A stretch of DNA of 64,000 bases, taken from assembly GCF_900603025.1 (NCBI RefSeq), contig NZ_LR026975.1:1116001-1180000 (forward strand), given 5' to 3'. The notes under the pieces were generated by a model that did not search any database, was not told the DNA's origin, and saw only the letters and a program-made list of their open reading frames with translations. This DNA comes from Mycolicibacterium hassiacum DSM 44199 (lineage in GTDB: Bacteria; Actinomycetota; Actinomycetes; Mycobacteriales; Mycobacteriaceae). Shown here in pieces: positions 38,433 through 49,045 of this stretch. Position 1 is the stretch's first letter; every line of letters starts with the position of its first letter. Position numbers and translations under genes: made by a program.

Positions 38433-38598
38433 GTGCCTGTGAGACAATAACAAAGCCACGGCGTCAAAACGAAATCCGGCCGTGTGTGATCTTGTCTGCG
38501 ACGTCGCTGTCGCGTGGTATCCATTGCCCTCACCGTAGACTGGTGAGTAACTTGGGGTGCTCTTCGTTGTCATTCGAGCTGCGAGGTGGGAACAAAGT

Positions 38599-39816
38599 AT
38601 GTGGAAGGACCGTGCTGCGGCCCGTCCGCGTCGCTTCAGAGGGTGGTTGGTCGCCGCCTTGGTTCCGGCTCTCGTGCTCGAATTGTCGTCATGCGGCCGT
38701 GAGACGGCTCCGCCGGAACCGGAGTACATCGCCGACAAGGGAACGCCGTTCCACGATCTGCTCATCCCCAAGCTCACGGCGTCGGTGACCGACGGTGCGA
38801 TCGATGTGAGCGTGGATTCCCCGGTGACCGTGTCCGCCGAGGACGGCGTGCTGGGCGCGGTCACCATGGTCAACGAGAGCGGCCGGCAGATCGAGGGTGC
38901 CTACAGCCCCGACGGGCTGACCTGGTCGACCACCGAGTCGCTGGGCTACAACCGGCGCTACACGCTGACCGCGGAGTCGTTGGGGCTCGGCGGCAAGACC
39001 ACCCGGCAGATCACCTTCCAGACGCATTCGCCGGACACCCAGACCATGCCGTACGTGGTTCCGAGCAACGGCGAGGTCGTCGGCGTGGGGCAGCCGGTCG
39101 CGATCCGGTTCGACGAGGACATCCCGAACCGGTTGGCGGCGCAGCGGGCCATCACCATCAAGACGGACCCGCCGGTGGAGGGTGCGTTCTACTGGCTCAA
39201 CAACCGCGAGGTGCGCTGGCGGCCGGCGAAGTTCTGGAAGCCGGGCACCAAGGTCGAGGTACAGGTCAAGGTGTACGGCGTCGAACTCGGCGACGGGTTG
39301 TTCGGCCAGGAGAACGTCGAGACCTCCTTCACGATCGGTGACGAGGTCATCAGCACGGTCGACGACAACACCAAGACCATGACCGTGCGGCGCAACGGTG
39401 AGGTCATCAAGACGATGCCGGTGTCGATGGGCAAGAACAGCACGCCCACCAACAACGGCATCTACATCGTGGGGGAGAAGCGGGACCACATGGTCATGGA
39501 CTCCTCGACCTACGGGGTCCCGGTCAACTCGCCCGACGGATACCGCACCGAGGTCAGTTGGGCCACCCAGATCTCCTACAGCGGCATCTACGTGCACGCG
39601 GCCCCGTGGTCGGTGGGCAGCCAGGGCCACACCAACGTCAGCCACGGCTGTATCAACGTCAGTACCGAGAACGGGCGCTGGTTCTACGACAACTCCAAGC
39701 GCGGTGACGTCGTCGAAGTCATCAACACCGTGGGACCGCCCCTGCCGGGCACCGACGGACTCGGCGACTGGAACATCCCGTGGGAGCAGTGGAAGGCGGG
39801 TAACGCCAACATCTGA
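38599..39816 (+). CDS. ldtB: L,D-transpeptidase, LdtMt2 (LppS) type lipoprotein
   Basis: A 405-residue peptidoglycan cross-linking enzyme that forms 3-3 (Dap-Dap) bridges and is inhibited by carbapenems. ATG 38599 is preferred (GAGGTGGG upstream); the frame opens 14 codons earlier. The lipoprotein signal ends at LSSC, Cys32. Two Ig-like domains follow (about residues 45-145 and 146-245), then the YkuD catalytic domain (about 250-380). The active-site loop reads HGCINVS with nucleophile Cys351, and the upstream IYVHAAPWS holds the conserved His. The C-terminal extension ends [16 protein letters not shown], as in LdtMt2 (Rv2518c). A TAGACT at 38536-38541 could be a -10 box. Confidence 0.96.
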
Positions 39817-39910
39817 TCGTCACGAGTTCGGGCCCCGGCGTGACGCCGGGGCCCGTTTCGTTTCGTCTGTGCGGCTTGCTCCGCGGCGGCTTGCCTGCGC
39901 GCGGCGTTGT

Positions 39911-39976
39911 GCAACGGAATAGCATTCCCGGCTGTGGTCGGGGCCTCCACGACGACCAGGAATGCTATTCCGTTGC
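39911..39976. repeat. 66-bp inverted-repeat element, copy 1
   Basis: Perfect 18-bp arms GCAACGGAATAGCATTCC (39911-39928) and its complement (39959-39976) around a 30-base centre that itself partly pairs (TGGTCG with CGAC..CCA). Near-identical copies lie at 47061-47118 and 48783-48848 in the same orientation. It lies 95 bases after ldtB and could work as a two-way terminator. It marks the left edge of the accessory island. Confidence 0.9.
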
Positions 39977-40457
39977 AGACCGGGGGCCGTGGCTAGGAGG
40001 CATGCGTTGGGGGCGCGCTTGAGTAACGCCAGGTATCGCATCGTAAAAACTTTGTTACGCGCTTCCGTGCCTCATCGACCAAAAAACAGCCTCTGAGCTG
40101 CTGATTTACCGACAAGAGACCCTCTCTCCTGGGAGTAATCGACCTGCCCCATCTGTTGCGGGGACGAAAAGCGGGCCTCAACATAAGGACGTCAAACATT
40201 CGCCGGTATCGGCAGGAATCGAAACTAATCGATGACGCTGTCACTCCTTATGTGAGGCCGCCGCGATGTAGAGCTATCCAACCAGTACCACTCATTTCCG
40301 GCATCGACGGGCTGAATTAATCCCTACATAGCCCGGCTCATCGATCTGTATTGAGTCCTGCGCTATGCGCCTTGCGATGCCAGCTGCCCGAATTCGGGCC
40401 TAGGCGAGCTTTTCTCTGTATTTCTGAATTCCATCCGAATCTGCGCGGAAAGGAGAA
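39977..40457. other. Leader region of the accessory island, with inverted repeat
   Basis: About 480 non-coding bases, clearly less GC-rich than the core genome. An imperfect inverted repeat at 40174-40189 and 40245-40259 (GGCCTCAACATAAGGA against TCCTTATGTGAGGCC, one bulged base) encloses 55 bases. It may be a long hairpin in the leader of the downstream operon, or the remains of a small mobile element. AAGGAG at 40450-40455 serves the next gene. Confidence 0.55.
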
Positions 40458-40901
40458 ATGGTGATCCCTATACCCGGCCCCGGAACTCCCGAGCGGGAGC
40501 GGCTCATCAACGAGCACAAGGAGTGCATCGATTCCATGAAGGGAGTCGCCGGCTGCTCGATTCTCAAATGCGATCCACCCGGGGACACGACGAACGTGTC
40601 TGGTGGCATTCATGAGGACATGCTGCTGAACCGGGTGCTCATCCGGATGCGGGCACAGCCGGCGGCCGGCAAGCTGGTCGACGTCTGCACCAAGCCGGAA
40701 AAGGAGTGGCGTATTGCTCGATTGTCTGGCATTCGGGGCGTGCCGCCAGAATTCGTAAACGACAAGGTGTACGACAACGAACACGATCCCCAGCACGACA
40801 TTTTCTTGATGCGGCTGGATGAGCTTCCCGAGTCCGACGGTTTTCCCGAACATTTCGGGGAGGGATGGAAACGTCGCGACGACAACTGGGCTGCTACGTG
40901 A
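40458..40901 (+). CDS. N,N-dimethylformamidase small (alpha) subunit-like protein
   Basis: A 147-residue protein with a strong AAGGAG site before its ATG. Size and place, directly upstream of a large dimethylformamidase-like gene, match the alpha subunit (about 130 residues) of N,N-dimethylformamidase, which hydrolyses dimethylformamide to formate and dimethylamine. Visible features: an N-terminal helical segment with two cysteines (SMKGVAGCSILKCDPP, about residues 28-43) and a tail rich in charged and aromatic residues (HFGEGWKRRDDNW). No catalytic residues are expected in this subunit. The natural substrate in mycobacteria is unknown. Its large-subunit partner is disrupted, so any activity is probably lost. 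Confidence 0.7.
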   Translation: MVIPIPGPGTPERERLINEHKECIDSMKGVAGCSILKCDPPGDTTNVSGGIHEDMLLNRVLIRMRAQPAAGKLVDVCTKPEKEWRIARLSGIRGVPPEFVNDKVYDNEHDPQHDIFLMRLDELPESDGFPEHFGEGWKRRDDNWAAT

Positions 40902-40971
40902 CCAGTGTTTGCGAGCGCCCAATAGCAGAAAATTGTGCAGCTGAATACTGACCTGGCATGGGAGATCTTTA

Positions 40972-41769
40972 ATGGCTTGGATGCGCTTGACCGGGTACGC
41001 CGATAAGTTCAGTGTGCACCCGGGTGATTCCATCAAGTTCTACGTCAATTGCGACGGCCCCAAGGAATACGACGTTCAACTGGTTCGGATGGTGCATTGC
41101 GACACCAATCCCAAGGGCCCGGGCCTGATCGAAGAGAAGATCGACGCACCGGTCAACAAGCGGTATCCGGGCCGCAAGCAGATCATCCACAGCGGCTCGT
41201 ACGGATACGTGGAAGACCGGCCGCAGTTCCGCCTGCAGAGCTTCACATTGCAGTGCTGGATCTGGCCGACCGCGCCCAAGACCCACCCGCGGTACTGGAA
41301 GCACGGCGCGCAGGGGCTCGTCACCAAGTGGTATGACGGCAAGGGCTACGGGCTGTTCATCAACGAGGAGGGATGCCCGGAGCTGCGGATCAACGACACC
41401 CGCATCACCAACAATGTCCCGCTGCGCGACCACGCGTGGCACTTCCTGGCCGCGACGTTCGACGCCGAAACCGGCACTGCCACGCTGTACCACGAGCCGC
41501 AGATCGTCTACGCCCTCGACCCGGAGATCGAACCGGTGGTCACCTCGGTGAGCGGGCCGGTGCTGCACGACGACAGCCCGGTGGTACTGGCGGGTTACAC
41601 CAGGGAGCACACCGACGATCCCCTCGCCCGGTCCTCGGTGCCGCAGGGCATCGTCATCGGTGGTCACTACAACGGCAAACTCGACAGCCCGCGGATCTGC
41701 AACCGGGCGCTGAGCCGGCTCGAGATCGAGACCATGAAGCATGGTGGCACGCGGGGCATGGAGGAATTG
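40972..41769 (+). pseudogene. Dimethylformamidase-like large subunit, 5' part, split by IS256 element
   Basis: The first 266 codons of a large-subunit gene that an IS256-family element cuts at 41770. GGGAG precedes the ATG. The fragment holds an N-terminal beta domain, then a LamG/concanavalin-like domain (about residues 85-240: FTLQCWIWPTAP, GLVTKWYDGKGYGLFINEEG, HAWHFLAATFDAETGTATLY), as in the large subunit of N,N-dimethylformamidase. Reading on into the IS adds 20 foreign residues before a stop. Joining codon TTG (41767-41769) to CTC at 43246 restores one frame (EEL-LRDMTERR) and a product of about 804 residues, close to the family's about 760. Confidence 0.82.
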
Positions 41770-43239
41770 TCAATACCTGTGGATCGGGGTGTTTCAGGCG
41801 ACCTCCGTTCCGGCGTGCTGACCGCCGTCTGAGGGCGATGTTGGCGGGGTGATGTCGGTGGGTCGTTCGAGCAGTCTGCCTTTATGGAAGACCGCGCCGG
41901 CGCGGACCAGGGCGACCAGGTGTGGGGCGTTGACGGCACGCCAGCGGGCCGCGGCGGCGTCGATGAGCTTGTAGGCCATCGCTAGTCCGGCCGCTCGTGA
42001 TCCGGGCCCCTTGGTGACCTTGGTCCTCAAACGCACTGTGGCAAAGGTGGATTCGATCGGATTCGTCGTTCGCAGATGAATCCAATGTTCGGCCGGATAC
42101 TTGTAGAATTCCAGCAGCACATCGAGGTCGTCGGTGATCTTAGCGACCGCCTTGGGATACTTCGCGCCGAAGTCGGCCTCGAAGGCCTTGACCGCGATCT
42201 GGGCCTTGTCGATATCCTCGGCGTTGTAGATCTCCTTGATCGCCGCCAGCGCCGACGGGTGCGCTGATTTCGGCAGTGCAGCAAGAACATTGGCCTGCTT
42301 ATGAAACCAGCACCGCTGCTCTTTGGTGGCCGGGAAAACCTCGCGGACTGCTTTCCAGAACCCGAGCGCGCCATCGCCGATCGCGAGTACGGGGGCGGTC
42401 ATGCCGCGGCGCTTGCAGTCGCGCAACAGATCGGCCCACGACTCGGCCGACTCGCGGTAGCCGTCGGTGATCGCCACGAGCTCCTTGCGGCCATCAGCAC
42501 GCACGCCCAGCATCACCAGCAGACAGAGCTTTTCCTGGTCCAGCCGCACCTTGAGGTGAATGCCGTCGACCCACAGATACACGTAATCAGTGGCCGAGAG
42601 GTCGCGGGCCCCAAACGCGCGGGCCTCGTCTTGCCACTGCGCCGTGAGCCGGGTGATCGTGCTGGCCGACAGCCCAGCGCCGGAGCCGAGGAACTGCTCG
42701 AGGGCAGGGGTGAAATCGTTGCTCGACAGGCCGTGCAGGTACAGCAGCGGCAGTACCTCGCTCATCTGCGGCGACTTGCGCGCCCAGGCCGGCAGGATCG
42801 CCGAGGAGAACCGCTTGCGTTCACCGGTGTCGGGGTCGACACGGCGGTCGTTGACCCGCGGCGCTTTCACCTGCACCGCGCCGGCGGCGGTCAGCACCTC
42901 CCGGGGCTGGTGATAGCCGTTTCGCACCACCAACCGGTGACCGTTCTCGTCGAGTTGATCGGCGAACTGCGCCACGTAGGCGGCGACCTCGGCCTGCAAC
43001 GCCGCGGCCAGCATCTGCCGGGCCCCGTCGCGGACGATCTCATCCAACAACGACCGACCAGCACCGCTGGCCTTGTCGTTGGCGTCCTCGGTGTCGTGAA
43101 CTACGGTGAGCATGGGCGTACCTTCCCAACCAGCGCGCCAACGCCGGTCTTGATCGAATACCTGATTCCGTGAAGATCATCCCCGGGAAGGTGCGCCCAT
43201 CTTCACGCCCCCACACCGAGGCTCATCCACAGGTATTGA
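41770..43239 (-). mobile_element. IS256-family insertion sequence
   Basis: A 1470-bp element ending in perfect 15-bp inverted repeats TCAATACCTGTGGAT at 41770-41784 and (complement) 43225-43239, with weaker pairing further in. It carries one transposase gene on the minus strand. A clean 8-bp target duplication, usual for this family, is not seen; only ATTG is shared by the flanks (41766-41769 and 43242-43245). It inserts within the dimethylformamidase-like large-subunit gene, antisense to it. Confidence 0.9.
41794..43113 (-). CDS. IS256-family (mutator-type) transposase
   Basis: A 439-residue DDE transposase, apparently intact. Catalytic residues: WVDGIHLKVR (first Asp, about residue 181), IGDGALGFWKAV (second Asp, about 247) and NPIESTFATVRLRT (Glu, about 352). 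The CWFHK motif (about residue 268, C/D-2-H signature of the family) lies between the second Asp and the Glu. The N-terminal part includes a DNA-binding region with VRNGYHQPREVLT. The element ends 24 bases beyond the stop codon. Confidence 0.95.
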   Translation of the reverse strand: MLTVVHDTEDANDKASGAGRSLLDEIVRDGARQMLAAALQAEVAAYVAQFADQLDENGHRLVVRNGYHQPREVLTAAGAVQVKAPRVNDRRVDPDTGERKRFSSAILPAWARKSPQMSEVLPLLYLHGLSSNDFTPALEQFLGSGAGLSASTITRLTAQWQDEARAFGARDLSATDYVYLWVDGIHLKVRLDQEKLCLLVMLGVRADGRKELVAITDGYRESAESWADLLRDCKRRGMTAPVLAIGDGALGFWKAVREVFPATKEQRCWFHKQANVLAALPKSAHPSALAAIKEIYNAEDIDKAQIAVKAFEADFGAKYPKAVAKITDDLDVLLEFYKYPAEHWIHLRTTNPIESTFATVRLRTKVTKGPGSRAAGLAMAYKLIDAAAARWRAVNAPHLVALVRAGAVFHKGRLLERPTDITPPTSPSDGGQHAGTEVA

Positions 43240-43245
43240 TCATTG

Positions 43246-44862
43246 CTCCGGGACATGACCGAACGCCGCCACGCCGGTCCCAGCTCGAAGCTGGCTGAAA
43301 CCGTGGTGGCCGCATGGGACTTCTCCGACGGCATCAACACGATCGTCGCCAAGGACCACGGTCCGTACCTGTTCCACGCCCAGCTCGTCAACTGCCCGAC
43401 CCGCGCCATGACCGGGCACAACTGGACCGGGCAGAACTTCGACTGGAAGCACGCTCCCGAGGAGTACGGCGCGATCCACTTCCACGACGACGACGTCGAC
43501 GACGCGCGCTGGGACGTCGACTTCGAATGGCAGGTGCCGGCCGACTTCAAGAGCGACTCCTACGCGATGAAGCTCACCACACCGGAAGGCGACGAGGACT
43601 ACATCCCGTTCTTCGTCGTACCGCGGGTGGGCCAGGAGCAGTCCAAGATCGCGGTGATGATCCCGACGATCAGCTACATGGCGTACGCCAACGAACACCT
43701 TGCGAACAACGCCGGCGGCGCCGAGCTGCTTGTCTACCGGGTGCCGATCATGCAGCACCAGAACATGTTCCTGTCGGAGCACCGCGAGTACGGCGGCTCG
43801 ATCTACGACACCCGCACCGACGGCAGCGGCATCTGCCTGTCGTCGCGGCTGCGGCCGATCCTGAGCATGCGCCCGAAGTACGACCACTTCCTCACCCAGG
43901 CACCGTGGCAGTATCCGGCCGACCACCACCTCATCTACTGGCTCAACAAGATGGGCTACCAGTACGACATCATCACCGACGAGGATGTCACCTACGACGG
44001 GCTGGCCCGGCTGGAGAACTACAACGTCGTCATCACCGGCTCCCACCCCGAACACAACTCGGGACCGCAGCTCGACGCACTGCACGACTACACCCAGCGG
44101 GGCGGCCGGCTGATGTACATGGGTGCCGACGGCTGGTACTGGGTGCACTCATACCACCCGGCCTACGACGACCGCGGCCGCGGCGTCATCACCGAAATGC
44201 GCCGCTGCGAGTCGGGCATCCGCACCTGGCGCGCCGACCCGGGCGAGTACTACCACCAGTCGACCGGGGAGCTCGGCGGTATGTGGCGGTTCCGCGGACG
44301 GTACCTGCACACCGTCGCCGGCACCGGTATGTCGTCGGAGGGCTTCGACGTGTCGACCTACTACACGCGGACACCGGAAAGCCTTGATCCCCGCGTGTCG
44401 TGGGCTTTCGAGGGCATCGACTACGACGAGAAGCTCGGCAACTTCGGGCTGGTCGGCGGTGGTGCCGCGGGTACCGAACTCGACATCGTCGACACCATGC
44501 TCGGCTCCCCGCCACACACGCTGGTGGTCGCGACCTCGGCGGGACGGCACACCGAGGGCTACCTGTTGGTGATGGAGGACTTCGGCTTCAACCAGCAGGG
44601 TCTCGACGGCACCCAGCACCCGCGGGTGCGATCGGACATCGCGTATCACGAAACTCCCAACGGCGGAGCGTGTTTCGCATTCAGCTCGATCGCCTTCTGT
44701 GGTGCGCTGCCTTGGAACGACTGCGACAACAACATCTCCCGGCTGGTCAAGAACGTTCTGGACCGGTTCATGCAGGACGGTCCGCTTCCGCCGCCGCCAC
44801 CGGAGGCGTTCGTCCACCGGGGCCGTGCGGACTACGAGCCGCCGGTGAAGGCAGCCAAGTGA
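43246..44862 (+). pseudogene. Dimethylformamidase-like large subunit, 3' part
   Basis: The remaining 538 codons of the gene split by the IS256 element. They hold a second beta domain (about bases 43290-43620), then the catalytic part with a class I glutamine-amidotransferase-like fold (VMIPTISYMAYANEHL, YDIITDEDVTYDGLARLENY, NVVITGSHPEHNSG, GGRLMYMGADGWYW). Dimethylformamidase has a mononuclear iron held by two tyrosines and a glutamate in this part; several candidate Tyr/Glu positions exist here (SYMAYAN, PGEYYHQSTGELGGMWR), but I cannot align them surely. An ATG at 43255 might allow separate translation, but without the N-terminal domains the protein is unlikely to be functional. Confidence 0.82.
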
Positions 44863-44953
44863 GTTGCTGACCGAGGTGCCCGGTGGCGCGGTGTCGGACC
44901 GCGTCACCGGGCCACCCGATCTCGGTGTCGACACCCGGAAAGACGTGTACGCG

Positions 44954-46058
44954 ATGAATCATCCCGACCGTGCATACCGCGACGAGGGTCTGGATCTGAC
45001 CGACGAGCGACTCTATGCAAACGTCCGGTGTAACGGTGCCGAGGCAACCGATCTACCGGCCGTCGCCTACCGCTCGAAGGTTTTCAGCGATCTGGAGGAC
45101 GAGAAGATCTGGACCCGCACCTGGGTCTGTGCGGGTACCGCCGACCAGATTCCCGACCCGGGCGATCTGCTCCCGTTCACCGTGGGAAACCACGGCATAC
45201 ACCTGGAACGACAGCTCGACGGCACCATCGCCGGGCGCTTCAACTTCGCCCAGCACGGCGGCTGCCGCACGGTCCCGCTGCAGTGCCAGACCGGGGTCAA
45301 GACTAAGTGTTCGTACACGTCGTGCGGTTACAGCCGCGACCGCGACGGTCATCCGCGCCGCGGATGTCGACGACAACGAGGCGATGACCTATCAGTACCT
45401 GGGCACCCGGCCGGACCGATTGCTGCCGGTGCGGTCCGCTCGCGTCGGACCCTTGGTGTTCGTCAACCTCGACTACGCCGGCAAGGACCTGCCCGATGGC
45501 ACCGCCTATCCCGGTCCGCTCCCGGAAGGGGCCGCCCACGCCGGCGAGTGGTGCGAGCTGGACTGCAACTGGAAGCTCGCCGGTGAAGCACTGCTGGTTG
45601 CGCTGGTGCGGGCCGGTTTCGGCGTAGCGGCACGGTTGTTCGCCTCGGTCGCCGACGAGCCGTCCGCGGCGTCGGAGCTCCCGGCCGCCGGGTCGGCGGG
45701 CAGCGTGTCGGTGGACTGGGTGTTTCCCAACCTGCTGACGGTCAGATCCGACGACCGCGCCCTTTTCCTGGTTACCCAACCGACCGGGATGTCGACCTGC
45801 CTGATCCGTCCGCACCTGCTGGGCCGGGGCGCGGACTCCCCGGAATCCGACCAGGAGTGGGAACAGGTGCGCGAGGGCATGGCCGCCGTCGGTATGCAGC
45901 GCCAGCGGGAGGCCGAACGCGCAGATGCGGATCGACCGTGCGCACCCGGCGTGCCCGACGAGATCTCGCCGGTGCTGCAGCGGTTCCGCAGTGCCGTGGT
46001 GGACAAGATCCTCGCGACGCACCAGTACTACTGGAACGCGCCGCTGTACGCCCCCTGA
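44954..46058 (+). pseudogene. Rieske-oxygenase-like protein, frameshifted and missing metal ligands
   Basis: Two frames together encode about 367 residues with the layout of a ring-hydroxylating oxygenase alpha subunit. The frame changes between GAC (45344-45346) and GTC (45348-45350); removing one G at 45347 restores CGYSRDRDVIRAAD. The Rieske-like segment (AQHGGCRTVPLQ ... KCSYTSCGYSRD) keeps one His and one Cys of the cluster motif: the CxH pair reads AQH, and CxxH reads CSYT. The catalytic part (NWKLAGEALL onward) lacks the two histidines that normally bind iron. So the intact ancestor was probably already a non-oxygenase relative. The start ATG at 44954 is tentative. Follows the dimethylformamidase-like gene in the same direction. 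Confidence 0.72.
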
Positions 46059-46067
46059 GGAGTTGCA

Positions 46068-46373
46068 GTGCTCTACAGCGTTCAGCAGATCCGGTACGAC
46101 TGCCTGGCCTTCATCAAGGAACTCGGCGGCAGTTTCGCGGATTTCGTTATCGGTGTCGGCGAGAATCCCCGCTCGGCGCTGTTCACCGTCCACAACGTGC
46201 ACCCGGAGCGGGATGCGTGGATGTACCGGCAGGCGCTGAGCTTCGCCGCGGTGCGCACCGTCAACAACTACTTTGTTGGCAAGCTCGGGGTGGATGGTGC
46301 CGAGGTGACCTCGGGTCCCGACGATTGCGACTGCATCTACCTGTACAAGAAGAGCGAAACCACAACACCCTGA
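46068..46373 (+). CDS. Unrecognised 101-residue protein of the dimethylformamidase-like cluster
   Basis: Starts at GTG 46068 with GAGGAG just upstream, 9 bases after the frameshifted Rieske-like gene, so it belongs to the same operon. The chain has no signal peptide or membrane helix. It looks like a compact alpha/beta domain with conserved-looking spots VHNVHPERDAWMYRQAL and DDCDCIYLYKK, the two close cysteines being the only obvious ligand pair. I do not recognise a family. It may be a partner of the Rieske-like protein; this is a guess from position. Confidence 0.6.
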   Translation: MLYSVQQIRYDCLAFIKELGGSFADFVIGVGENPRSALFTVHNVHPERDAWMYRQALSFAAVRTVNNYFVGKLGVDGAEVTSGPDDCDCIYLYKKSETTTP

Positions 46374-46398
46374 AACGATCCGGACATCGAGGTGGGAG

Positions 46399-47043
46399 AT
46401 GGCCGCATCGAGTGACACGAACACCTCATCGGCAGCTCTTGATGCCTATCAGCGGGGTGACTACGCGACCGCACGAGAGCTCTGGCTTCCGCTCGCCGAA
46501 GCGGGAGACCCAGAGGCGCAGGCCTGGATCGGCTCCCTATATGCCCATGGCGAAGGCGTCGACATCGACGACGCCGCCGCGTTCAGCTGGTACTTGCGTT
46601 CGGCGGAGGGAGGAAACCCGTTCGCGCAGAACAATGTCGGTGTCATGTACGCGTTGGGTCGGGGGACTTCCAAGGATGCCGTGCTCGCGGTGAAGTGGTT
46701 CATGATCGCGGCGGACAATGGCGACCAGCACGCGCAGTTCAACCTGGCGTCCTGTTATGCGACTGGTGACGGGGTCGACCGTGACCCCGAACGCGCGGCC
46801 TACTGGTATCGCCGAGCCGCCGAAGCCGGGCACACGGCGTCTCAGGCCCGGCTCGGCTACCTGTATTCGACCGGCCAGGGTGTTCCCAGAGACCGGGTGG
46901 AAGCCTTTGTGTGGCTGTCCCTGGCGGCCCGGCATGGGGTCGGCAATGCGTTGGCGGCCCTGGAGTCGGTCGTTCGGGAGATGTCAGCCGAAGAGAAGCA
47001 CGCCGGCGCCGAGCGACTGCGGGAGTTTGGCCTCGTCGCGTGA
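46399..47043 (+). CDS. Sel1-repeat (TPR-like) protein
   Basis: A 214-residue soluble protein built of about four Sel1-like repeats: AEAGDPEAQAWIGSLYAHGE (residues about 34-53), AEGGNPFAQNNVGVMYALGR, ADNGDQHAQFNLASCYATGD and AEAGHTASQARLGYLYSTGQ, spaced 36 residues apart. These helix pairs form solenoids for protein-protein contacts. No signal peptide is seen. It follows the 101-residue gene by 25 bases and closes the island's plus-strand operon. Its stop is 18 bases before repeat copy 2. Partner unknown. Confidence 0.88.
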   Translation: MAASSDTNTSSAALDAYQRGDYATARELWLPLAEAGDPEAQAWIGSLYAHGEGVDIDDAAAFSWYLRSAEGGNPFAQNNVGVMYALGRGTSKDAVLAVKWFMIAADNGDQHAQFNLASCYATGDGVDRDPERAAYWYRRAAEAGHTASQARLGYLYSTGQGVPRDRVEAFVWLSLAARHGVGNALAALESVVREMSAEEKHAGAERLREFGLVA

Positions 47044-47060
47044 CGCAGGCACTGATAACA

Positions 47061-47118
47061 CGGAATAGCATTCCCGGCTGTGGTCAGGGCCTCCACGACG
47101 ACCAGGAATGCTATTCCG
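47061..47118. repeat. 66-bp-type inverted-repeat element, copy 2
   Basis: Perfect 14-bp arms CGGAATAGCATTCC (47061-47074) and CGGAATAGCATTCC complement (47105-47118); the outer four bases on the left differ from copy 1. The 30-base centre differs from copy 1 by one base. Similarity to copy 1 continues about 25 bases to the right (GTTGCAGACC...GTGGCTAG). It lies between convergent genes, as a two-way terminator would. Confidence 0.9.
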
Positions 47119-47140
47119 TTGCAGACCCGGGGGGTTGTGG

Positions 47141-47659
47141 CTAGCGCTTCCAGAGATCTGTTATCTCCGAGGGAATTTCGTCTCGGCTGACCGCGGTCTT
47201 CGTCCATCGACCGGTCGAGTCCGGTGACACGTATGACACCGCGACGTCGCCCGAGTACACCCAGAGTTGATGTGGTTCTGTCGTCAGCCAGGTGATCAAC
47301 ACGCCGTGGCGCGTGCTGTACGCGTAGTCATCGCGGAACACCTCTTCGCCGGCGCGGCCGCGCACAACGACCGTCCAGGTCTCGACACCGTTCTGATCCG
47401 GACCCGGCTCCGCGTACGCGGTGAACTGCCCGGACGGTGACTGCCGCGGGTGATCCGGTCGAACGGCGCGACCGTCGGCAGAAGGGTCGGACATCGCGCA
47501 ACCCGCGAGTAAAGTCAACGCCGCCAGGACGGCGGCCAGGACACCTGCGGTTACCGCCGTCGAGCCGACACCGAACCGCGTCGCCCGAACCGACGACCGA
47601 CCGTATCCACCAGGTGCCCACAAGGCAGGGTAGCGCGGCCGTCGGGGGCTGATCGTCAC
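47141..47659 (-). CDS. Putative lipoprotein
   Basis: A 172-residue exported protein if started at GTG 47659; a GTG at 47569 gives 142 residues and a more normal lipoprotein signal, with the lipidated cysteine (LAGC) at residue 24 instead of 54. The mature part (SGQFTAYAEPGPDQNGVETW ... VFRDDYAYSTRHGVLITWL ... LWVYSGDVAVSYV) is beta-rich with regular aromatic residues, like a single small beta-sandwich. No family recognised. The IS481 element begins only 16 bases upstream of the longer start, so its native promoter has probably been cut off. Confidence 0.75.
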   Translation of the reverse strand: MTISPRRPRYPALWAPGGYGRSSVRATRFGVGSTAVTAGVLAAVLAALTLLAGCAMSDPSADGRAVRPDHPRQSPSGQFTAYAEPGPDQNGVETWTVVVRGRAGEEVFRDDYAYSTRHGVLITWLTTEPHQLWVYSGDVAVSYVSPDSTGRWTKTAVSRDEIPSEITDLWKR

Positions 47660-47669
47660 GAGAACGTGC

Positions 47670-48641
47670 CTAGCTGTTCTTCACGGGTAGGTTGTGAACG
47701 CGTAGGCGGTCGATAGGTGTCATTCCGCCGATGCCGGTGTGGGGTCGGTGGTGATTGTAGTGATGCAGCCAGTGCTGGTAGGTTCCGGCGCGTTCGGCCT
47801 CAGAGCGGTAGGTCTGCGCATAGGCCCATTCAGTGGTCAGGGTGCGGTTGAATCGCTCGACTTTGCCGTTGGTCTGCGGCCGGTAGGGCCGGGTCCTCTT
47901 GTGGGCGATGTCGGGGCCGAGCGCTTCAGCGAAATTCTTTGACCGGTAACAGGATCCATTGTCGGTCAACACCCGCTTGACGGTAATGCCATGGTCGGCG
48001 AAGAACGCGCTGGCGCGTTTCCAGAACCCCGCGGCGGTTTCTTTGCGTTCGTCGGCGAGGTCCTCGGAATACGCCAGCCGGGAGTGGTCATCAACGGCGT
48101 GGTGCAAGAACGTGTATCCCATGCCGCAGCGGTTGCGCCGGCCGGCTTGGCGACCCAGCTTGCGATGGCCGCCCCCGTCGGGGATGCGGCCCAGTTTCTT
48201 GACGTCGACATGGACCAAGTCGCCGGGAGCCGGGTGCTCATAGCGGCGGGGTTTGGGCCGGCGTACCGGCAACCCGGTGTTCTGGTCCAGGTGCCGCAGC
48301 AATGGCATGCGGTAGCGGCGTAACACCGCTTCTACCGTTGACCGCGCCAACCGCAAATGGGCGGCGATACGATGTGGGCCCCACCGCCGGGTGAAGCGCA
48401 GGTTGACGATGCGCCGCTCACGTCGTTTCGGCAACCGCAACGGACTGCGATGCGGCCGGCTGGGCCGGTCTACCATCGCTGCTTCGCCACCGTCGCGATA
48501 ACGGTCGGCCCATTTCTTGGCTGTGGCCACCGAACATTGGAACCGCTCAGCAGCGCGCCGCAAACTCCAGCCCTGATCAACAACAGCCTGCGCAAGCCGC
48601 AACCGCCCACGAGGAGTCAACGAAGCATTAGCGTGGACCAT
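47670..48641 (-). CDS. IS481-family transposase
   Basis: A 323-residue DDE transposase. N-terminal helix-turn-helix (about residues 8-45, TPRGRLRLAQAVVDQGWSLR), a second HTH region, then the integrase core: LVHVDVKKLG (first Asp, about residue 148), VLTDNGSCYRS (second Asp) and NGKVERFNRTL (Glu, about 255). The stop codon TAG (complement of 47670-47672) lies outside the element end, in the duplicated target sequence CCTAGC, so the insertion site supplies the stop. Confidence 0.94.
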   Translation of the reverse strand: MVHANASLTPRGRLRLAQAVVDQGWSLRRAAERFQCSVATAKKWADRYRDGGEAAMVDRPSRPHRSPLRLPKRRERRIVNLRFTRRWGPHRIAAHLRLARSTVEAVLRRYRMPLLRHLDQNTGLPVRRPKPRRYEHPAPGDLVHVDVKKLGRIPDGGGHRKLGRQAGRRNRCGMGYTFLHHAVDDHSRLAYSEDLADERKETAAGFWKRASAFFADHGITVKRVLTDNGSCYRSKNFAEALGPDIAHKRTRPYRPQTNGKVERFNRTLTTEWAYAQTYRSEAERAGTYQHWLHHYNHHRPHTGIGGMTPIDRLRVHNLPVKNS

Positions 48642-48748
48642 GAGGACCTCTCGGTAATCGGATGTGCGTGTTTGGTAACCACACCGATACCGGAGGTCCT
48701 CACCTACTTCCGCTCACCACGCCGTTCACAACCTGTCTGGGAGTTACA
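47675..48748 (-). mobile_element. IS481-family insertion sequence with 6-bp target duplication
   Basis: A 1074-bp element from TGT to ACA with imperfect terminal inverted repeats, whose inner 12 bases are identical (AGGTTGTGAACG at 47689-47700, complement at 48723-48734). It is flanked by direct copies of CCTAGC (47669-47674 and 48749-48754), which fits the NCTAGN target known for Bordetella IS481. The element appears complete. Confidence 0.93.
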
Positions 48749-48782
48749 CCTAGCGCGGCGCTCGACCCCGCTTCGTCCGCTC

Positions 48783-48848
48783 GCAACGGAATAGCATTCC
48801 CGGCTGTGGTCGGGGCCTGTACAACGACCAGGAATGCTATTCCGCGGC
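48783..48848. repeat. 66-bp inverted-repeat element, copy 3
   Basis: Left arm GCAACGGAATAGCATTCC (48783-48800) is identical to copy 1. The right arm (48831-48848) differs at two bases, and the centre differs from copy 1 at three or so. Same orientation as copies 1 and 2. It lies 35 bases beyond the IS481 right end and marks the right edge of the island. Confidence 0.88.
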
Positions 48849-48924
48849 AAATGGGGGGCAAGTGAGGGGGTGGGGGAGCGCAAGAGCGCAAAGAGTCGCT
48901 GGGGGAGACGTCACCCGAAAACGA

Positions 48925-48962
48925 GCACCGCCCCACCGACGTTGTCGCGGGTGGGGCGGTGC
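48925..48962 (-). terminator. Intrinsic terminator of tRNA-His
   Basis: Arms GCACCGCCCCACC (48925-48937) and GGTGGGGCGGTGC (48950-48962) are perfect 13-bp complements. On the minus strand the stem is followed by TCGTTTTCGGG, a short T-run. It begins 9 bases after the tRNA 3' end. Confidence 0.85.
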
Positions 48963-48971
48963 TGCACTCGG

Positions 48972-49045
48972 GGTGGCTGACGGGACTCGAACCCGCGACA
49001 TCCAGGACCACAACCTGGTGCTCTACCAGCTGAACTACAGCCACC
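48972..49045 (-). tRNA. tRNA-His (anticodon GUG)
   Basis: Minus-strand cloverleaf: acceptor GUGGCUG pairs with CAGCCAC, anticodon loop UUGUGGU (GUG), T-loop GUUCGAG. A G at position -1 (49045) faces the C discriminator (48972), the hallmark of tRNA-His. CCA is not encoded. It separates the accessory island from orn. Confidence 0.96.

Follow-up and report, generated by a model that had tools for sequence, protein, structure and literature searches.

The 64,000-nucleotide stretch of Mycolicibacterium hassiacum DSM 44199 analysed here (contig NZ_LR026975.1, positions 1,116,001 to 1,180,000; hereafter the window) contains what we regard, on balance, as probably an acquired and now broken copy of an operon. 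The operon encodes an amidohydrolase of the N,N-dimethylformamidase (DMFase) type, made of a small (S) and a large (L) subunit, together with a putative dedicated accessory protein, R, and mostly two further proteins, U and SEL. Both the gene order and the sequence recur in 72 related loci and are therefore not a matter of chance. These relatives are mainly proteobacterial, and the operon is widespread but uncharacterised. The S-L pair has already been mentioned in print; the literature searches that we made found neither the operon nor a description of R as a non-oxygenase. DMFase-type enzymes are known to us mainly from the degradation of an industrial solvent, and the operon points to a natural substrate for them and to possible helper proteins for their iron site of two tyrosines and one glutamate (2-Tyr-1-Glu).

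The gene cluster in the window

S, L, R and U follow one another on one strand (+) between an L,D-transpeptidase gene and a tRNA-His gene. This consecutive order had been proposed in an earlier reading of the window from its letters alone (the sequence-only reading), and the open frames together with Pfam bear it out. What was described there as a set of four genes has at least five, plus a transporter in most of the relatives; SEL, the fifth gene of the conserved set, lies outside the interval covered by that reading and was missed, as were the limits of the island that holds the cluster. The features of the cluster are as follows.

40458..40901, + strand: S, small subunit, DMFase-alpha-like, 147 residues, open frame
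40972..41769, + strand: first part of L, comprising the N-terminal region and a LamG-like domain (Pfam Laminin_G_3, E 5e-11)
41770..43239, - strand: insertion sequence (IS) of the IS256 family within L, outer ends set by eye from the inverted arms
43252..44862, + strand: second part of L, comprising the DMFA2_C catalytic domain, with an intact Tyr/Tyr/Glu iron site and Asp where DMFase has Asn547
44955..46058, + strand: R, homologue of Rieske oxygenase alpha subunits with a four-cysteine site, frameshifted near 45350
46068..46373, + strand: U, 101 residues, open, GTG start, small uncharacterised family
46399..47043, + strand: SEL, Sel1-repeat protein, 214 residues, open (Pfam Sel1, E 1e-42)

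L as a whole occupies 40972-44862 and is interrupted by the IS256-family element, the open frame of its second part running from 43243 to 44862. The inverted ends of the element lie at 41760-41784 and 43225-43249 (88% complementary), and its transposase is encoded at 41794-43113 on the minus strand (NF033543, 296 bits, cut-off 150). R starts with an ATG at 44955, its reading frame switches near 45350 and runs on to 46058, and all four cysteines of its site are present in the R piece of the window. Pfam gave no match at E 0.1 for S, U or the first part of R, and the second part of R matched Ring_hydroxyl_A below threshold only (19.5 bits vs a cut-off of 24.9). The second part of L matches a single place in its own genome (5.27 Mb, one contig). 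Because L is interrupted and R is frameshifted, the system in the window is probably dead, although the frames of S, U and SEL remain open. The sequence-only reading was right about the mycobacterial host and about the decay by IS and frameshift, which are the IS256-family element in L and the frame change in R.

Conservation of the operon and its probable iron amidohydrolase

The 72 loci come from one scan of species genomes, in which they were chosen through words of one L sequence. R is present in all of them, starting 32 to 792 bp past the L match, S lies upstream of L in 71 (the remaining locus is cut by a contig end), and U and SEL are found in 68 each, SEL downstream of L. All five genes occur together in 67 loci, which agrees with the expectation of the sequence-only reading that relatives would carry the genes together. 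The loci are mainly proteobacterial; U and SEL are both missing from four, which are mycobacterial and have S-L-R only. The genes are tightly spaced, with a median distance of 70 bp from the L stop to the R start (37 loci measured) and 29 bp from R to the match of the next gene (36 loci), the underlying gene starts being our own picks of open reading frames. U lies downstream in 63 loci and upstream on the opposite strand in five (L020, L031, L035, L040 and L064), all of which are betaproteobacterial by record title. The order of U and SEL varies (21 SEL-U and 11 U-SEL of 37 loci), yet the genes remain close.

A second sample consisted of 289 alphaproteobacterial genomes searched with profiles. 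DMFA2_C was found in 52 of them at 1e-40, and R in three (more than 440 bits, the next best match having 101), each time adjoining a DMFA2_C match by coordinates. Strong U matches occurred in the same three genomes and weak U relatives in four others, none of which is among the 52 with DMFA2_C. Another 19 genomes matched the R profile at 1e-20 through canonical oxygenases and served as controls. Within the genus of the window, 31 of 297 genomes carry DMFA2_C, and among 30 such loci (one per genome) R stands beside L in nine, namely that of the window and eight others, four of which belong to genomes already among the 72; in the other 21 no R match was found within approximately 1.5 kb of flank.

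A DMFA2_C tree was built from 81 rows, which include 27 of the 72 loci and from which near-identical rows and fragments were excluded. Association with R switches once on this tree (support 100/100), none of 500 shuffles was as good, and judged from their sequences the R-associated L proteins are one clade. The 48 rows without R include the canonical dmfA2 of Paracoccus aminophilus (L081), which falls outside the R clade. A second, separate mycobacterial clade of L-like proteins (L145-L148) is likewise without R.

The second part of L matches DMFA2_C (PF20254) with E 2e-91 and 307 bits against a curated cut-off of 27, and the Paracoccus DMFase (PDB 6lvb) with E 2e-133. The S of the window gave a weak phmmer match to the DMFase small subunit (6lvb_B, E 0.038), and its gene stands upstream of L here as well. 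The likeness to DmfA1/DmfA2 of Paracoccus covers a small and a large subunit as well as the LamG-like and DMFA2_C regions. According to PMC7686228, the Fe(III) ligands of DMFase are Tyr399, Tyr440 and Glu521, activity is lost in the variants Y440A, E521A, H519A, E657A and N547A, and a role in stabilising the oxyanion is proposed for Asn547. Alignment to 6lvb places the ligands, His519 and Glu657 in all 33 rows of the R clade, the window's included, and in all 48 other rows, so that the DMFase-type pair with its Tyr/Tyr/Glu site proposed in the sequence-only reading stands. Of the two outcomes which that reading had set against itself, L belonging to an unrelated family and the genes never being together elsewhere, neither occurred. 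From the conserved residues, S-L is very probably an iron amidohydrolase. The R clade differs from the Paracoccus enzyme in its separate place on the tree and at position 547, where all 33 of its rows have Asp. Of the 48 other rows, 44 have Asn there, the exceptions being the mycobacterial L145-L148. Another member of the superfamily, N-acetyl-(R)-beta-phenylalanine acylase (8huy / 8i5a; E 1e-104 to the second part of the window's L), keeps the Tyr, Tyr, His and Glu in the printed alignment and has Asn at the 547 position, unlike the R clade; a literature search for this acylase found no paper.

The clade could consist of ordinary DMFases for N,N-dimethylformamide (DMF) or N-methylformamide, to which R, U and SEL would be incidental. 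The complete set of iron ligands with His519 and Glu657 fits such enzymes, and the owners include genera known as methylotrophs. We nevertheless consider it improbable: the Asn547 that is reported to be essential in the Paracoccus enzyme is Asp throughout the clade, canonical dmfA2 branches elsewhere, and the genetics of P. aminophilus point in another direction. This organism carries dmfA1-dmfA2 on pAMI2 (L081), where a LuxR-type regulator is encoded and nothing matches R, U or SEL. Its pAMI5 (L080) bears S-L-R-U but no SEL, with a gene for a binding protein on the upstream side and one of the AmiS/UreI type on the downstream side. According to PMC4543880, the strain without pAMI2 is unable to use DMF despite the clade member on pAMI5, and no link of the pAMI5 pair to DMF use was found. 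On account of these genetics and the N547D exchange, the clade is probably not made up of DMFases in the strict sense; its members probably share the mechanism of DMFase, and their substrate is probably not DMF but another small amide-like compound.

Transporter genes and urease, amidase and AmiS neighbours in the related loci suggest small nitrogen compounds of the amide or urea type. Homologues of a binding protein, UrtB and UrtC, which are components of an amide/urea-type ATP-binding cassette (ABC) transporter, occur in 58 of the 72 loci, and a Rhodospirillaceae metagenome-assembled genome (MAG; L008) has UrtB, C, D and E models above cut-off. The binding protein is akin to urea-binding proteins and to AmiC; in L008 and L029 it stays below the UrtA cut-off (312 and 335 vs 493 bits). 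Fmd, a short-chain amide ABC transporter, is presumably a further likeness; a literature search for it was without result. Among 73 records (the 72 loci and pAMI5), a urease alpha homologue was found in 14, an aliphatic amidase homologue in five and an AmiS homologue in two. The island of the window has no transporter, though three further relatives of the binding protein are encoded in the genome. In the related loci, the Urt/Fmd-type ABC transporter encoded upstream would probably import a small nitrogen compound resembling an amide or urea, and S and L would hydrolyse it at an Fe(III) site held by two tyrosines and a glutamate, where the oxyanion Asn of DMFase is replaced by Asp; the reaction is one that we infer from residues seen at the sequence level.

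R and its putative partner proteins

R keeps the overall fold of Rieske oxygenase alpha subunits, with fold matches that include CntA and stachydrine demethylase. The Rieske-oxygenase-like partner of the sequence-only reading was thus correctly placed as a homologue, but neither metal site of an oxygenase is present. The Cys-x-His...Cys-x2-His cluster motif and the catalytic two-His motif, both found in alpha subunits such as those of biphenyl/toluene dioxygenase and CntA, are absent from R: in the first the initial Cys and the last His are replaced, and the second, the motif of the mononuclear iron after NWK, is seen in none of 45 R proteins and in 23 of 23 oxygenase controls. R has instead the motif C-x6-C-x7-C-x4-C, with four Cys in 72 of 72 loci and in 0 of the 23 controls, and a His-x2-His (HxxH) in 71 of the 72. 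This Cys/His core is strongly conserved and the C-terminal half is variable; seven of the eight mycobacterial R proteins are short. Going by these motifs, R is very probably not an oxygenase, and its own site presumably holds either a metal ion or an Fe-S cluster with cysteine ligands. Since both metal sites are missing, an oxygenase step is unsupported, and the dioxygenase annotation of at least one R-type protein, the pAMI5 one ('biphenyl 2,3-dioxygenase'), is contradicted.

One could still suppose that R, despite an unusual cluster, functions as an oxygenase and demethylates the amine released by S-L, as its nearest folds include the N-demethylases CntA and stachydrine demethylase and its owners include Methylorubrum and Hyphomicrobium, both known as methylotrophic genera. 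Given the replaced Rieske Cys/His ligands, the missing two-His motif and the shortness of most mycobacterial R proteins, we hold this to be very improbable. No ferredoxin or reductase partner was recognised among the annotated neighbours, a search that was not systematic, and such a partner could lie elsewhere.

R descends from Rieske oxygenase alpha subunits, having lost both metal sites and gained four invariant Cys and two nearly invariant His. In the reading that we prefer, it would act as an accessory specific to this clade of L, most likely by loading, keeping or stabilising the iron enzyme, and its putative partners would be U and the Sel1-repeat protein; the linkage of the genes suggests a function of R, U and SEL in the maturation, stability or regulation of S-L. 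More tentative, and in our view somewhat doubtful, is a stricter form of this proposal, in which the former Rieske alpha subunit, now a non-oxygenase with an all-Cys (+HxxH) site, would be an obligate maturation or redox-guard factor of the iron amidohydrolase, mostly with two small proteins at its side and for a natural amide-, urea- or amidine-like substrate. If true, it would define an accessory system for 2-Tyr-1-Glu iron enzymes. The operon further offers a case, open to experiment, in which the fold of a redox enzyme has been turned to use in a metal protein that is not an oxygenase.

R, U and SEL may alternatively form a sensing or regulatory module, where the Cys site of R senses metal, oxygen or redox state and acts through the Sel1 adaptor on the enzyme or on its expression. 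Sel1 repeats are protein-interaction repeats, and both the variable C-terminal half of R next to its conserved core and the closeness of U and SEL in spite of their changing order would suit such a module. It is unlikely in our estimate, because Pfam finds neither a DNA-binding nor a signalling domain in the R and U proteins scanned, and a separate two-component system or helix-turn-helix regulator is nearby in some loci.

Several points weigh against the accessory role that we prefer. The 72 loci were selected through their likeness to a single L and do not form an independent sample, and of the three R genomes among the 289, one is the search centre (that of L029), one has the R of L028 and only one (G262) is new. 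N547D is not strictly tied to R, as L145-L148 also have Asp at this position. U and SEL are not obligatory, given the four mycobacterial loci without both and pAMI5 without SEL, and R was picked by script as a single open frame in 59 of the 72 loci. Much of the cysteine loop of R (107-110, 112-125) has a predicted local distance difference test score (pLDDT) below 50 in the model. In three mycobacterial loci R scores 85-109 bits, no higher than canonical oxygenases (75-104), from which it is set apart by its cysteines and genomic place. The association could also mean a regulatory or structural role, and we know of no experiments on R, U or SEL.

The AlphaFold2 model of U has a pLDDT of 94; structural matches to it were sought and none was convincing. 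Distant relatives share a WYVG core by eye. Four of them (L176-L179) are stand-alone proteins in alphaproteobacteria, three with a glycine-rich C-terminal part, and L177 and L178 adjoin what appear by eye to be type I restriction genes.

The genomic island and its origin

The cluster lies in an island of approximately 9.1 kb that is missing from five mycobacterial relatives. Its features beyond the cluster are given below, all without assigned strand except for the transposase.

39817..48969: genomic island, bounded on the left by the L,D-transpeptidase gene (38557-39816) and on the right by tRNA-His (3' end)
39916..39971: 56-bp palindromic element with inverted arms of 13 bp, copy 1, at the left edge of the island
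47062..47117: 56-bp palindromic element, copy 2, immediately behind SEL at the end of the cluster
47670..48641, - strand: IS481-like transposase (Pfam rve_3, LZ_Tnp_IS481), in the island and outside the operon
48788..48843: 56-bp palindromic element, copy 3, at the right edge of the island

The island abuts the 3' end of tRNA-His (48970-49044, minus strand). The L,D-transpeptidase gene of its left flank was looked up in 20 relatives, which gave 12 loci of the same genus. In five of these (L181, L182, L183, L188 and L189) the two flanks are 41 to 498 bp apart, compared with approximately 9.15 kb in the window; six matched the left flank only and one (L199) neither flank. Both flanks were also matched in L198, a locus of another genus.

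On the DMFA2_C tree the L of the window belongs to a 24-row set (support 100/98) with 22 proteobacterial rows and one acidobacterial MAG, as judged by titles, and the eight other mycobacterial rows with R branch outside this set. Its identity is 80-89% to the L of the 68 non-mycobacterial loci and 63-71% to that of the four mycobacterial ones. Since the island is missing in five mycobacterial relatives and L is nested among mainly proteobacterial sequences, horizontal acquisition from a proteobacterium is the simplest reading and a probable one. The window would then exemplify a catabolic cluster, probably proteobacterial, that was acquired and afterwards broken in a mycobacterium.

The right part of the island consists of the IS481-like transposase and a small gene (47141-47659) that is lipoprotein-like by eye and without a Pfam match. 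The 56-bp element has three copies in the window, four in the genome and none in 36 relatives (two mismatches allowed); the fourth copy lies at genome position 1,030,137. The 13-bp inverted arms of the element are perfect, and it may delimit small mobile cassettes or be a repeat similar to repetitive extragenic palindromic (REP) sequences or miniature inverted-repeat transposable elements (MITEs).
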